Below are positions 26,703 through 30,959 of a DNA stretch of 64,000 nt, piece after piece; the stretch's first letter is position 1, and each line of letters begins with the position of its first letter. The notes beneath the pieces were generated by a model, which made no database searches, was not told the origin of the DNA, and was given only the letters and a program-made list of their open reading frames with translations. Location: positions 434,001-498,000 of the forward strand of contig NZ_SOEO01000003.1 of NCBI RefSeq assembly GCF_004365655.1, in the 5' to 3' direction. Both the position numbers and the translations under genes were made by a program. Source of the DNA: Epilithonimonas xixisoli (GTDB lineage: Bacteria; Bacteroidota; Bacteroidia; Flavobacteriales; Weeksellaceae).

Positions 26703-27321
26703 TTTCCTTTATCTTATTTTTGCAACTTTCGTATTATTAAGCTGTAAAACTTACAACACATCTATTTTGGAAAACGGCGATTTGCTTTTCGTGCCATCTG
26801 TGGATTCTGGATTGTCTGGAGCGATTAATAATGTCACTCAGACAGAGAAAAAAACGTCTTATGACCATATTGGGATTTTAAAAAAAGAAGAGAATCATCT
26901 TTATGTTCTTCACGCATCGCCAAAAGGCGGTTCTCAAAAACAAAAACTTCATTCTTTTCTGAAAGAACAATCTAAATCTGGACAAAAAATTGATGTTTAC
27001 AGATTAAAATCAGAATTTCAATCATCTATTCCAAACTCTGTTTCCAAAGCTGAAACTTTGATTGGAAAGCCTTACAATTTTAATTATATTTTGGATGAGA
27101 ATTCCTATTACTGTTCAGATTTTGTGGAAAGAGCTTTTCGAGAAAATCAAATTTTTCAGTTGGAGCCAATGACTTTCATCGATCCAAAAACCAATCAGAC
27201 GAATGCGTTTTGGGAAAAATTTTATCAAGATAAAAAACTGAAAGTTCCGGAAGGCGAGCCGGGTTGTAACCCAAATGGATTGGCAAATTCTAATAAAATT
27301 GATAAAATAGGAGAACTTTAA
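26680..27321 (+). CDS. YiiX/NlpC-P60-like cysteine hydrolase lipoprotein
   Basis: About 213 residues; the ATG at 26680 gives a clean lipoprotein signal (MKRILKSNFLYLIFATFVLLSC) whereas the longer reading frame from 26632 does not. The mature part is a permuted papain-fold hydrolase of the YiiX/YaeF type (DUF830). The catalytic His is probably H63 in SYDHIGI and the Cys C145 in SYYCSDFVERAF, with GKPYNFNYI preceding it. Such enzymes are thought to act on amide or ester bonds in lipids or peptides at the envelope. The true substrate is unknown. It overlaps the DUF1801 gene by 23 bases. Confidence 0.85.
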   Translation: MKRILKSNFLYLIFATFVLLSCKTYNTSILENGDLLFVPSVDSGLSGAINNVTQTEKKTSYDHIGILKKEENHLYVLHASPKGGSQKQKLHSFLKEQSKSGQKIDVYRLKSEFQSSIPNSVSKAETLIGKPYNFNYILDENSYYCSDFVERAFRENQIFQLEPMTFIDPKTNQTNAFWEKFYQDKKLKVPEGEPGCNPNGLANSNKIDKIGEL

Positions 27322-27339
27322 TCCTATTTTTTTAAAATT

Positions 27340-27383
27340 AATTCATACTTATTTGGTATGAATTTGAAATTATTCTATTTTTG
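27340..27383 (+). promoter_or_regulatory. Promoter with palindromic operator over the -33 box (site 1)
   Basis: Perfect 9-bp arms AATTCATAC (27340-27348) and GTATGAATT (27356-27364) flank the spacer TTATTTG. The TTTG in the spacer (27352-27355) fits the -33 element of a Bacteroidota promoter, with TATTTTTG at 27376-27383 as the -7 box and 20 bases between. A nearly identical site with the same geometry precedes the DUF4395 operon (28643-28685). A bound dimer would cover the -33 box, so repression is the simplest reading. Confidence 0.7.
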
Positions 27384-27399
27384 ATTCATAATTTTTACA

Positions 27400-28638
27400 A
27401 TGGATATATTTGATAGAATAGAAAATAACCCAGGTCCGCTGGGAGAATACGCAACTTATGCCGACGGAGAATACATTTTTCCTCAATTGGAAGGCGAGAT
27501 TTCCACCAAGATGTTTTTCAAGGGTAAAGAAATGATCGTCTTCAGTCTCAACAATTATCTTGGACTTGCCAACCATCCCGAAGTTAGAAAAGTAGATGCA
27601 GAAAGCGGGCAATCTTACGGATTGGCTTATCCAATGGGATCTCGAGCGATGACGGGACAAACCAAACATCATCAGGAATTGGAAAAAGAACTGGCAGAAT
27701 TTACCCAAAAAGAAGCTTCAATATTACTAAATTTCGGCTATCAGGGAATGTTTTCTTTGATTGATACATTGTTGACGAGAAATGATGTCGTAGTCTATGA
27801 TTCGGAAAGTCACGCCTGTGCAATTGATGGTGTAAAACTTCACAGAGGAAAGCGTTTTGTTTTTGCGCACAATGATATGGAAAGTTTTGAAAAATCACTC
27901 CAAAAAGCATCAAAAATCACAGCGGAAACTGGCGGTGGAATTTTGGTTTTGACGGAAGGTGTTTTCAGTATGAATGGCGAACAAGGCAAGCTGAAAGAAA
28001 TTGTAGAACTCAAAAAGAAATACCCATTCCGACTGATTGTGGATGATGCGCACGGCTTCGGTGTGATGGGCGAAAATGGAGTAGGAACGGGCGAAGAGCA
28101 AGGCGTCCAAAGCGAAATCGATCTTTATTTTTCTACATTTACAAAATCATTTGCAAGTTTCGGCGCTTTCGTTTCCGGGAAAGCGAGTGTCATCAAATAT
28201 ATCAAATACAACATTCGTTCACAGATTTTTGCCAAAGCTTTGCCAATTGTAATGGTCATTGGCATCAGAAAACGATTGGAACTGGTAAAACAAAATCCGC
28301 AATTCCGAACTCGACTTTGGGAAAATGTTTTTAAAATTCAGAAAGGTCTGAGAGATTTAGGATTTGATATTGGGAAAACAAATACTTGCATCACGCCGGT
28401 TTTCATCAAAGCTGATACATTGGAAGCGACTTTGATTGTGAAAGAATTGCGTGAAGTTCACGGGATTTTCACGAGCATTGTGGTTTATCCTGTCATTCCA
28501 AAAGGTTTGGTAATGCTGAGAATTATCCCGACAGCAGAGCATTCTGACGAAGAAATCGATCAATTGTTGTTGGCTTTTGAAAGTTTGAACAAGCCAAAAG
28601 AAATTGTTCCAATATTAATTAATAATGAATTAGTATAA
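27400..28638 (+). CDS. Alpha-oxoamine synthase (serine palmitoyltransferase / cysteate acyltransferase type)
   Basis: A 412-aa PLP enzyme of the alpha-oxoamine synthase family, which condenses an amino acid with an acyl-CoA or acyl-ACP and loses CO2. PLP is bound by K249 in STFTKSFASFGAF. Other family blocks are SLNNYLGLANHP near 47-58, GSRAMTGQTKHHQELEKELAEF, DSESHACAIDGVKLHRG and VDDAHGFGVMGENG near 210-223. The N-terminus (MDIFDRIENNPGPLGEYATYADGEYIFP) is unlike BioF or Kbl and resembles the serine palmitoyltransferase-like proteins of Flavobacteriia. Two products are plausible: the sphingoid base 3-ketosphinganine, or a capnine-type sulfonolipid base made from cysteate. The sequence does not decide between them. 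Its promoter carries the operator shared with the DUF4395-NIL operon. Confidence 0.85.
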   Translation: MDIFDRIENNPGPLGEYATYADGEYIFPQLEGEISTKMFFKGKEMIVFSLNNYLGLANHPEVRKVDAESGQSYGLAYPMGSRAMTGQTKHHQELEKELAEFTQKEASILLNFGYQGMFSLIDTLLTRNDVVVYDSESHACAIDGVKLHRGKRFVFAHNDMESFEKSLQKASKITAETGGGILVLTEGVFSMNGEQGKLKEIVELKKKYPFRLIVDDAHGFGVMGENGVGTGEEQGVQSEIDLYFSTFTKSFASFGAFVSGKASVIKYIKYNIRSQIFAKALPIVMVIGIRKRLELVKQNPQFRTRLWENVFKIQKGLRDLGFDIGKTNTCITPVFIKADTLEATLIVKELREVHGIFTSIVVYPVIPKGLVMLRIIPTAEHSDEEIDQLLLAFESLNKPKEIVPILINNELV

Positions 28639-28642
28639 ATTT

Positions 28643-28685
28643 AATTCCTACTTATTTGGTGGGAATTAAATAATTTATATATTTG
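28643..28685 (+). promoter_or_regulatory. Promoter with palindromic operator over the -33 box (site 2)
   Basis: AATTCCTAC (28643-28651), spacer TTATTTG and GTGGGAATT (28659-28667); the spacer is identical to site 1 and the arms pair with one mismatch, extended by TTT/AAA outside. TTTG at 28655-28658 and TATATTTG at 28678-28685 form a near-consensus promoter with 19 bases between. Transcription would start near 28691, just before the structured leader. Confidence 0.72.
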
Positions 28686-28689
28686 CAAT

Positions 28690-28809
28690 AGAATTAAGAT
28701 TAAATGAAAAGCATATTCTCTCATATCATAATGTGTAACCCCAAGTAAATCATTGGATAGGAGAGAATATGTCTTTAAGCTTTACCTATTTCGGTAGAGC
28801 TTTTTTTTT
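28690..28809 (+). ncRNA. Structured leader RNA ending in an intrinsic terminator (putative attenuator)
   Basis: From the predicted start near 28691, the RNA forms a 15-bp helix: AAAGCATATTCTCTC (28708-28722) pairs with 28761-28776 with one bulged U. The enclosed 38 bases may form ATC/GAT and AATG/CATT helices around a loop with CCCC. A terminator follows directly: AAGCTTTACC (28777-28786) and GGTAGAGCTT (28793-28802), then nine T in total. The DUF4395 start codon is only 17 bases after the T run, with no room for another promoter, so the operon must be read through this terminator. I do not recognise a known SAM riboswitch motif. An independent RNA such as 6S-Flavo is an alternative. Confidence 0.65.
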
Positions 28810-28826
28810 AAAATTAATATAAAACT

Positions 28827-29267
28827 ATGGGAAAATTTGCTAACAAAAATATCTACATTGATGACAGTGCATCGTCAATTGTTGCCTATCAAGTGATTTT
28901 GATAACTGTTTTTGGAATCCATTTCCAACAGCAATGGTTGTTACTTTTTCTGGCTTTCGATTTTCTTCTTCGAGCCACGGGATTGTTCGCTTCGCCATTA
29001 TATTTCGTTGCGAAAAAAGTTTCAGAGTTTCTCTATTTTGAAAAGAAACCTGTTTTTGCAGGACCCAAGAGATTTGCAGCGATGCTGGGATTTGTAATGA
29101 CAATCCTGATTGCATTTTCTTATGATTCTCAAATCGGGATTTTCCTTGGAATTACGCTGATTGCTTTGGCCTCTTTGGAAAGTGTTTTCCAAGTCTGCGT
29201 TGGCTGTTACATTTTTAATTTTCTAATTGTCCCGATTCAAAACAAATTCAACAACTCACCAAAATAA
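28827..29267 (+). CDS. DUF4395 integral membrane protein
   Basis: A 146-aa protein with four predicted helices and a central amphipathic segment, matching DUF4395. The C-terminal helix holds a CVGCYIFN motif (near residues 130-137), a CxxC pair typical of this family and suggestive of sulfur or redox chemistry. DUF4395 proteins often accompany thioredoxin-like or thiosulfate/sulfur-metabolism genes, but no function has been shown that I know of. The gene is preceded by a terminator-ended leader and followed after three bases by the NIL-domain gene. Confidence 0.85.
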   Translation: MGKFANKNIYIDDSASSIVAYQVILITVFGIHFQQQWLLLFLAFDFLLRATGLFASPLYFVAKKVSEFLYFEKKPVFAGPKRFAAMLGFVMTILIAFSYDSQIGIFLGITLIALASLESVFQVCVGCYIFNFLIVPIQNKFNNSPK

Positions 29268-29270
29268 TAT

Positions 29271-29588
29271 ATGATTATGATTTACAAACAAGAAACTTTA
29301 GGCAACAATTTTGTCCCGAAGCCAGCAAAGGAAATTATTCTGGAAATAGAACTGAATGGAAAAATCAGATTTGATCTTCTGCTTTACACGATTCACAACC
29401 ATTACAAAATCAGTTATAAAATCGTGAACGCACACATCGAATATCTGAATGGAAACAACTTCGGAAACGTAAAACTTCTTCTGAAAATAACGGATGATGA
29501 GATTGACAAAATCGAAAATTATCTTGGCGAATATAAAATGATGAGTTGCAAAATACCTGTCTTACAACAAAAAAAGGAAGCTTCATAA
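29271..29588 (+). CDS. Stand-alone NIL-domain protein (MetN C-terminal domain-like)
   Basis: About 105 residues; a second ATG at 29277 is an equally good start. Residues about 25-98 match the NIL domain found at the C-terminus of the methionine ABC transporter ATPase MetN. The match includes IRFDLLLYTIHNHYKISYKIVNAHIEYLNG and NFGNVKLLLKITDDEIDKIENYL, in line with MetN's 'NIISAQMDY..G..FG' segment. In MetN this domain binds methionine and inhibits transport. Here no ATPase is attached and no metI/metQ is nearby, so it may serve as a free sensor or regulator. It is cotranscribed with DUF4395. The stop codon overlaps the following terminator stem. Confidence 0.82.
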   Translation: MIMIYKQETLGNNFVPKPAKEIILEIELNGKIRFDLLLYTIHNHYKISYKIVNAHIEYLNGNNFGNVKLLLKITDDEIDKIENYLGEYKMMSCKIPVLQQKKEAS

Positions 29589-29602
29589 AGAGCTTCCTTT
29601 TG
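29572..29602. terminator. Terminator after the NIL gene (bidirectional)
   Basis: AAAAGGAAGCT pairs with AGCTTCCTTTT around an 8-base loop. It includes the last codons of the NIL gene and also faces the convergent murA gene. Confidence 0.85.
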
Positions 29603-29651
29603 ATTTTATAATTAAGGTCTAAATTCTAACATCTAAACTCTAATTTCTTTT

Positions 29652-30959
29652 TTAAATTCTTCTAATATCAGCACCAATCGCTCTCAATCTTTCATCGATA
29701 TTTTCATAACCACGATCGATTTGTTCGATGTTTTGAATCACGGATTTTCCTTCCGCGGAAAGTGCCGCGATCAACAAAGCATTTCCAGCTCTGATGTCTG
29801 GCGAAACCATTGTTGTCCCGCGCAATGGCGTTTCTTGATTCATTCCGATGACAGTTGCTCTGTGCGGATCGCAAAGAATGATTTGCGCACCCATATCAAT
29901 CAATTTATCTACGAAGAACAAACGGCTTTCGAACATTTTCTGATGAATCAAAACAGAACCTTTTGCCTGAGTTGCCACAACTAATATTATTGATAACAAA
30001 TCCGGCGTAAATCCAGGCCAAGGCGCATCTGAAACTGTCAAGATAGAACCGTCAATAAATTTCTGAATCTTATAATTTTCCTGAGACGGAATATAAATAT
30101 CATCGCCTCTTTGCTCCAATTCTATTCCTAGTTTTCTAAATGTGTTTGGAATCACGCCCAGCTCATTCCATTTTACGTTTTTGATGGTGATCTCAGATTT
30201 CGTCATTGCGGCCAAACCAATCCAAGAACCTATTTCCACCATATCTGGAAGCATTGTATGCTCTGTTCCGTGAAGTTTATCCACGCCTTCCACAGTCAAA
30301 AGATTGGAACCGATTCCGGAAATATTCGCACCCATTCTGTTCAGCATTTTGCATAATTGCTGAAGATACGGCTCGCACGCGGCATTGTAGATTCTTGTTT
30401 TTCCTTTTGCCAAAACTGCTGCCATTACGATGTTTGCAGTTCCGGTAACAGAAGCTTCTTCCAGAAGGATGAATTTCCCGTTTAATTCTTTAGCTTTAAG
30501 TGAATAGAATGCTTCTTCCTCGTCATAAGAAAATTCTGCACCCAATTCCACAAAACCTTGGAAGTGCGTGTCCAAACGTCTTCTTCCGATTTTGTCTCCA
30601 CCAGGAGTTGGCAAATAAGCTTCGCCAAATCTCGCCAACATTGGTCCAAGAATCATCACAGAACCTCTCAGTTTTGCACCGTCTTTTTTGAATTCTTTAG
30701 ATTTTATATAATCGAAGTTGACTTCATCTGCTTTGAATGTGAAATCACCTTTTCCGTTTTTCGTCACTTTTACGTTGAAGTCCTGAAGGATTTCTATCAA
30801 TTTATTCACATCCTTGATGTCTGGGATGTTATCAATCCTCACTTCATCTTCCGTCAGCAAAACAGCACAAAGAATCTGCAACGCTTCATTCTTCGCACCT
30901 TGAGGCGTGATCTCTCCGCTCAATTTTTTACCACCTCTTATTTCAAAAGCTCCCTCCAT
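29652..30959 (-). CDS. murA: UDP-N-acetylglucosamine 1-carboxyvinyltransferase MurA
   Basis: A 435-aa enzyme that starts peptidoglycan precursor synthesis by adding enolpyruvate to UDP-GlcNAc. GGKKLSGEITPQGAKNEALQIL opens the EPSP-synthase-like fold; K23 and N24 are the usual catalytic pair. The active-site loop reads LPTPGGDKIGRRRLD, with Asp (D122, bases 30594-30596) where the classic enzyme has Cys (Cys115 in E. coli). Cys-to-Asp MurA enzymes are active but not alkylated by fosfomycin. The rest is normal, including DMVEIGSWIGLAAM and the C-terminal RGYENIDERLRAIGADIRRI. It directly follows the DUF4290 gene with no gap. Confidence 0.97.
   Translation of the reverse strand: MEGAFEIRGGKKLSGEITPQGAKNEALQILCAVLLTEDEVRIDNIPDIKDVNKLIEILQDFNVKVTKNGKGDFTFKADEVNFDYIKSKEFKKDGAKLRGSVMILGPMLARFGEAYLPTPGGDKIGRRRLDTHFQGFVELGAEFSYDEEEAFYSLKAKELNGKFILLEEASVTGTANIVMAAVLAKGKTRIYNAACEPYLQQLCKMLNRMGANISGIGSNLLTVEGVDKLHGTEHTMLPDMVEIGSWIGLAAMTKSEITIKNVKWNELGVIPNTFRKLGIELEQRGDDIYIPSQENYKIQKFIDGSILTVSDAPWPGFTPDLLSIILVVATQAKGSVLIHQKMFESRLFFVDKLIDMGAQIILCDPHRATVIGMNQETPLRGTTMVSPDIRAGNALLIAALSAEGKSVIQNIEQIDRGYENIDERLRAIGADIRRI

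Follow-up and report, generated by a model that had tools for sequence, protein, structure and literature searches.

A palindromic operator at two promoters of Epilithonimonas xixisoli points to a predicted Rrf2-type sulfur regulon

Two 25 bp palindromes lie 1.3 kb apart in a stretch of 64,000 nucleotides of the Epilithonimonas xixisoli genome (the window). Judged by their sequence, they are one common and specific operator and not a chance resemblance. Related sites across the genus indicate that the operator is associated with genes for sulfur, methionine, SAM and redox functions. An Rrf2-family sulfur regulator probably reads it, and in this genome the most likely such protein is encoded at G000:C2:457631-458053. 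In the window the operator precedes a predicted sulfonolipid enzyme and the DUF4395-NIL unit.

Operator 1 (27340..27364, + strand) consists of 9-bp inverted arms flanking TTATTTG and has the letters AATTCATAC-TTATTTG-GTATGAATT, 25 bp in all. It is predicted to lie over the -33 box of a SulA/CapB paralogue. Operator 2 (28643..28667, + strand) reads AATTCCTAC-TTATTTG-GTGGGAATT, is also 25 bp long with one of its nine arm pairs mismatched, and is predicted to lie over the -33 box of the DUF4395-NIL unit. Promoters of the phylum Bacteroidota have TTTG as their -33 box and TAnnTTTG as their -7 box. The TTTG that ends the spacer is the predicted -33 box in both operators (27352..27355 and 28655..28658, both + strand). 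The predicted -7 box follows 20 bases after the spacer at operator 1 (TATTTTTG, 27376..27383, + strand) and 19 bases after it at operator 2 (TATATTTG, 28678..28685, + strand). The initial annotation had described two palindromes with an identical spacer that contains the -33 box, and a TAnnTTTG 19-20 bases on. Both descriptions were confirmed, the palindromes letter for letter and the boxes at both sites, and the spacing to the -7 box supports its placement of the operator over the -33 box.

Allowing up to three mismatches, the pattern has two matches in the window and none in 100 dinucleotide shuffles. The genome search that had been proposed as a check proved specific, as the sole matches to the symmetrical consensus AATTCCTACTTATTTGGTAGGAATT at three or fewer mismatches in the 3.39-Mb genome are the two window operators. 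Looser patterns recover weaker copies elsewhere in the same genome. The AT-rich 5' flank is also similar between the operators (a 39-nt pair, 82%). Promoter duplication, considered unlikely from the start, was rejected because the common part is the element with some AT-rich flank and nothing longer.

The element is present at up to two mismatches in 24 of 246 genomes of the family, of which 21 are among the 23 genomes of Epilithonimonas; a reversed-pattern control yielded one match across all 246. Retention upstream of orthologues had been put forward as a check and was found for both units. The NIL-unit operator is kept in 21 of the 23 genus genomes (19 with DUF4395 and NIL, 2 with NIL alone), and a NIL-unit site was not found in the other 2. 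At each of these 21 sites the -7 box and the spacer are 19 bases apart, and the arms are conserved while the flanks vary. The enzyme paralogue was found in five of the 21 NIL-unit loci. The operator precedes it, with 0-2 mismatches to the symmetrical pattern, in 4/4 loci with that region, and in the fifth (L028) the contig ends inside the gene. Exact forms occur in 2 of 395 genomes of an order sample, both Weeksellaceae, and the exact site with its -7 box in 1 of 395 genomes of a phylum sample, that being E. xixisoli itself; each sample contains few Epilithonimonas genomes.

The loci themselves vary in gene content. One genome (G138, L230) has a broken copy of the operator-linked SulA paralogue and retains the operator and the DUF4395-NIL unit. 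The paralogue is missing at several other loci (L019, L021, L023 and the L037-type flank), with a short remnant resembling its 3' end. DUF4395 is missing in two genomes (G101 at L175 and G115 at L021); the NIL gene alone follows there, and the operator and a Met-Cys leader are kept.

A regulon of only two units, as first proposed, was not borne out. The genus appears to possess a sulfur/methionine regulon of at least seven units. In E. xixisoli the weaker copies precede metK, metNIQ, a TonB receptor and a peroxiredoxin. A scan of the genus matched 22 of 23 genomes and gave 81 forward matches versus 13 for the reversed control. Sixty regions were taken from among the matches listed, and the regulon counts are lower bounds (the listed matches for G123 and G008 are incomplete). 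In these regions 43 sites are intergenic and 17 are within ORFs, four of the 17 at one conserved coding position. All but two of the intergenic sites (41/43) precede six recurring genes at a near-constant distance: metK (at least 18), metN (at least 10), the peroxiredoxin (at least 7), a TonB receptor (at least 3), a cupin-like gene (at least 2) and NIL (at least 1). The remaining two (L141 and L159) have no sulfur link. MetK, MetN and the cys genes were named by eye; Pfam names for tested examples were peroxiredoxin, TonB plug, Cupin_8, TauE, PHO4, Inositol_P, CitMHS and Cons_hypoth698.

Three genomes outside of the genus also contain the element, in each case ahead of sulfur-linked genes. 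The site lies at rrf2/TonB beside a cys operon in one, before an Inositol_P phosphatase and a CitMHS permease in another, and before a Cons_hypoth698 transporter in the third. We take the phosphatase to be CysQ-like and the transporter to be of the YeiH type. Further E. xixisoli sites are placed before an HU-like gene (L067) and before a permease of the TauE-like kind (L068), the latter at a long distance from the predicted -7 box. Both come from this one genome and were left out of the regulon count. Rfam models identified a SAM-II riboswitch (61.2 bits) between the site and metK and a SAM riboswitch (70.8 bits) between the site and the TonB receptor in this genome, and no riboswitch at three other site loci scanned alongside.

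The cupin-like (JmjC-type) gene starts 37-40 bases after the operator (L039, L040, L041, L043, L167 and L196), and an SDR-type reductase gene is found just upstream of it in L039-L041 and L043. A sulfur role is not plain for either this gene or the peroxiredoxin. The stand-alone NIL protein (29271-29588) and metNIQ are under the same operator. MetN normally bears a NIL domain, and the stand-alone protein might modulate the metNIQ transporter.

Promoter geometry was compared among 80 listed gene-linked sites (51 distinct), which were chosen after their genes were seen. A TAnn(n)TTTG box begins 15-22 bases past the spacer in 54 of the 80, and the operator is therefore predicted to cover the -33 box there. 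The peroxiredoxin sites have the box at 22-24 bases; one listed site lacks it, and in another it begins at 11. The box is at 35 in all 19 metK sites and at 37 before the TonB receptor with the SAM riboswitch, and a separate TTTG lies just downstream of the operator in both cases. Thus the operator would sit beside, not over, the -33 box at both SAM-riboswitch promoters.

The regulator had been expected outside of the window, and the Rrf2 candidate encoded elsewhere in the genome supports this. E. xixisoli has three PF02082 genes; the match at G000:C2:457634 scores 115.7 bits. The Rrf2 encoded from G000:C2:457631 is present at 90% identity or more in all 23 genus genomes (reported identities 90-97%). 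The rrf2 gene of E. xixisoli has no adjoining site and none in the 130 bases before it. The Rrf2 locus set (29 loci, 506,669 bases) came from a contig scan with an Rrf2 pair, and contains nine sites at up to two mismatches. Six of the nine follow the stop codon of rrf2 at a distance of 13-49 bases and represent three independent lineages, with three near-identical sites in Lutibacter, one in Phaeodactylibacter and two in Cloacibacterium. The downstream gene differs by lineage (TauE-like, PHO4-type or TonB receptor), and rrf2 with its site is therefore the constant pair. The E. xixisoli Rrf2 encoded from G000:C2:457631 belongs to the type found in these lineages. In Cloacibacterium the order is cysH-cysD-cysN-cysK-sumT-cysJ-cysI-rrf2-site, the genes being named by eye. 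In a further genus (L200) the site overlaps the rrf2 stop codon. The recognition region of the L200 Rrf2 is rather different, and matching of recognition helix to operator was dropped as proof because L200 breaks the correspondence.

The genus g20 (presumably Chryseobacterium) is the largest sister genus sampled. Its Rrf2 is about 50% identical and its genomes have zero strict-pattern matches. In one g20 genome (G178) a site with 3 mismatches stands between cysH-cysD (named by eye) and another Rrf2 gene (L127, 1442); the operator may have drifted in this genus. The solved relatives of the candidate Rrf2 comprise 11 PDB matches, including the CymR chains 2y75 and 3t8r, with the Rrf2 chain 4cic the best. 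Cysteines C91, C100, C103 and C109 are conserved, identical in two aligned proteins, and their retention makes a cluster or metal possible in this Rrf2. Identity as a CymR orthologue was not assigned because this cluster-type cysteine set is present.

Rrf2-family operators can be up to about 27 bp long. The 9+7+9 bp layout fits an Rrf2-type site, with two inverted half-sites and a 7-bp centre; the site of the Rrf2 protein NsrR is 23 bp with a 7-bp centre (PMC9338935, in excerpt). A genuine sulfur operator could still be read by some other dimeric regulator, for example of the TetR, GntR or MarR type, with rrf2 merely near sulfur genes. The absence of a site beside rrf2 in E. xixisoli and the related Rrf2 of g20 genomes without strict sites are what such a regulator would lead one to expect. 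It would not explain why three independent lineages, with differing downstream genes, have the site immediately 3' of rrf2, or a length and 7-bp centre that suit an Rrf2 site as excerpted from PMC9338935, and we consider it unlikely. It is far less probable still that the palindromes are RNA or DNA hairpins, acting as terminators of the upstream genes or as processing sites. They are inverted repeats just behind genes ending at 27321 and 28638, as such hairpins would be, but their arms are AT-rich with no T run after them, and the predicted start site is downstream of them. The fixed distance to the -7 box at the DUF/NIL sites (19 in 21/21) and the conservation of the arms between variable flanks also argue against hairpins. 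An operator read by the Rrf2 protein is the interpretation that we follow below.

The first gene under the operator (27400..28638, + strand) encodes a 412 aa protein, a second paralogue of cysteate-C-fatty acyltransferase (SulA/CapB). Against solved chains it scores 576 and 517 bits with the cysteate acyltransferases 28eh and 7u7h and 227 bits with the serine palmitoyltransferase 3a2b. The Lys in SQIFAKALP aligns with the K of 28eh and 7u7h, the equivalent of Lys281, described in the excerpted text of PMC9304779 as a SulA feature replacing the Spt alanine. The enzyme is predicted to be the cysteate acyltransferase SulA/CapB, which it resembles in bit scores and in the Lys281 equivalent; the same two features led us to reject a sphingolipid serine palmitoyltransferase. 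The initial annotation had called it a sphingolipid/sulfonolipid-type enzyme; the sulfonolipid part of that label stands and the sphingolipid part does not.

The window copy differs from known SulA/CapB in being a second, operator-linked paralogue. It is 62% identical to the housekeeping SulA of its own genome, and a SulA with 61-64% identity to it occurs in each of the 23 genus genomes. No site at up to three mismatches was found within 1.5 kb upstream of the housekeeping SulA in the 23 genomes, except at L226, where the match is inside the preceding coding region. Inclusion of the main sulfonolipid genes in the regulon was rejected since the housekeeping SulA lacks the operator. The window gene, which has the operator, is therefore predicted to be a sulfur-linked extra copy. 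In at least 13 of 23 loci the gene immediately before the housekeeping SulA is, judged by eye, cysteate-synthase-like.

The DUF4395/NIL unit has a second predicted control layer, consisting of a leader ORF and a terminator, beyond what the first reading described. The leader ORF (28704..28748, + strand), MKSIFSHIIMCNPK followed by a stop, is conserved in length and in its Met-Cys. A stem, P1 (28707..28776, + strand; arms 28707-28727 and 28756-28776), encloses most of it. A predicted intrinsic terminator hairpin with a T run (28777..28809, + strand) precedes the genes for the DUF4395 protein of 146 aa (28827..29267, + strand) and the stand-alone NIL-domain protein of 105 aa (29271..29588, + strand). 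The ORF has 14-15 codons and Met-Cys in 21/21 genomes, with the consensus M..IFS.IIMCN.K and a stop codon that varies between TAA, TAG and TGA. The 15 distinct 14-codon versions have 7, 4 and 13 variable columns by codon position (13/24 third), and pairwise codon differences comprise 306 synonymous versus 417 non-synonymous changes. In P1, 132 of 143 cells are paired across 13 distinct arm pairs, a value reached by 2 of 2000 shuffles, and the pairs covary, including T-A to A-T exchanges.

A predicted intrinsic terminator follows the leader in 21/21 DUF/NIL cases and in all 10 metN leaders folded, from a set of 11. The metN leaders contain different ORFs, with at least one Cys in 10/11 and two or more in 8/11; at L182 the usual position holds no ATG-initiated leader ORF containing Cys. 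Both kinds of leader look like cysteine attenuation, in which we infer that the ORFs are translated. A Cys/Met-rich short ORF, MNTKDFTFNNPKYSFTAMCMMVCCCKVSLEAPISYGL (MCMMVCCC), was also observed directly upstream of cysH in Cloacibacterium (L092, about 1240-1355) and is a possible further candidate for a Cys attenuator.

Instead of an attenuator, the DUF4395 leader may be a simple gene for a small protein, or a metabolite riboswitch followed by a terminator. Equilibrium folding is consistent with this and shows the antiterminator switch in few leaders: with the RNA blocked at the Cys codon, the terminator is lost in 4 of 21 DUF/NIL and 1 of 10 metN leaders, so that it persists in 17/21 DUF/NIL leaders whatever the ribosome does. 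P1 is also long and covarying. An Rfam search of 27200-29700 at E<=1 gave no match, which fits a leader of another kind and means that no riboswitch listed there accounts for the DUF/NIL leader. Attenuation is favoured by an ORF that keeps its frame, length, Met-Cys and a stop of varying kind in 21/21, and by the metN leader, which has the same operator and a different ORF, with Cys in 10/11. We give the non-attenuator reading an appreciable but minor chance and continue with cysteine attenuation.

In the circuit that we propose, an Rrf2 dimer would bind the two half-sites of the palindrome. When sulfur is plentiful, Rrf2 on a site covering the -33 box would block RNA polymerase, and a shortage of sulfur would lead to its release. 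Such sites are predicted at the sulA paralogue, DUF4395-NIL, metNIQ, the cupin-like gene and TonB receptors. The metK site is about 16 bp further upstream and the effect there may differ, because this site is beside rather than over the -33 box. A second layer would act on the transcript, through the SAM-II riboswitch at metK and the SAM riboswitch at one TonB receptor. At metNIQ and DUF4395-NIL, the Cys leader ORF and terminator are probably a ribosome-dependent attenuator reading Cys-tRNA; a Met-Cys arrest peptide would be the alternative. The complete scheme is tentative, and we doubt that every part of it will hold: a single Rrf2 acting as repressor over the -33 box and possibly as activator beside it, a check on SAM or Cys-tRNA in the transcripts, and a duplicated SulA that couples the sulfonolipid make-up of the outer membrane to sulfur supply.

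The closest known system may be CymR, the Rrf2-family cysteine master regulator of Bacillus subtilis and Staphylococcus aureus (PMC2869319, PMC3828012, both in excerpt). The likeness includes the Rrf2 family, a sulfur-amino-acid regulon and, in some bacteria, a gene beside a cysteine-synthesis gene (same excerpts). CymR binds no Fe-S cluster according to the excerpted part of PMC9338935, whereas the candidate here has C91, C100, C103 and C109, and the regulon here includes metK, the sulfonolipid enzyme and TonB receptors. CymR also acts together with CysK, a partnership that is not known for the candidate. NsrR, IscR and RsrR are similar in having half-sites around a 7-bp centre, as in the 23-bp NsrR site (PMC9338935, in excerpt), a likeness of layout. 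They differ in their regulons, which concern NO or Fe-S, whereas the one here concerns sulfur.

Short ORFs with Cys codons before sulfur genes, with attenuation proposed, have been described in Actinobacteria (PMC1262725, in excerpt). The aligned Mycobacterium leaders have no conserved terminator hairpin reported in that excerpt, whereas the leader ORFs examined here each lie between the operator and a predicted intrinsic terminator. Leader-peptide attenuation occurs in flavobacteria at amino-acid operons of Flavobacterium psychrophilum, with no Cys or sulfur case among its attenuators in the excerpted text (PMC9723704). PMC11211663, also in excerpt, was a further source. Among the matches listed, the open literature gave no Rrf2 sulfur regulon in Bacteroidetes, judged by titles and the openings of abstracts, no control of sulfonolipid genes and nothing related on Rrf2 in Chryseobacterium. 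Nor did we find Cys leader-peptide attenuation in Bacteroidetes in the open literature.

If this interpretation is right, the study of sulfur control in flavobacteria would gain an operator, a candidate regulator and a list of genes. It would also gain a proposed control of a sulfonolipid enzyme. The Cys leader units would place cysteine among the amino acids that flavobacteria sense by attenuation.
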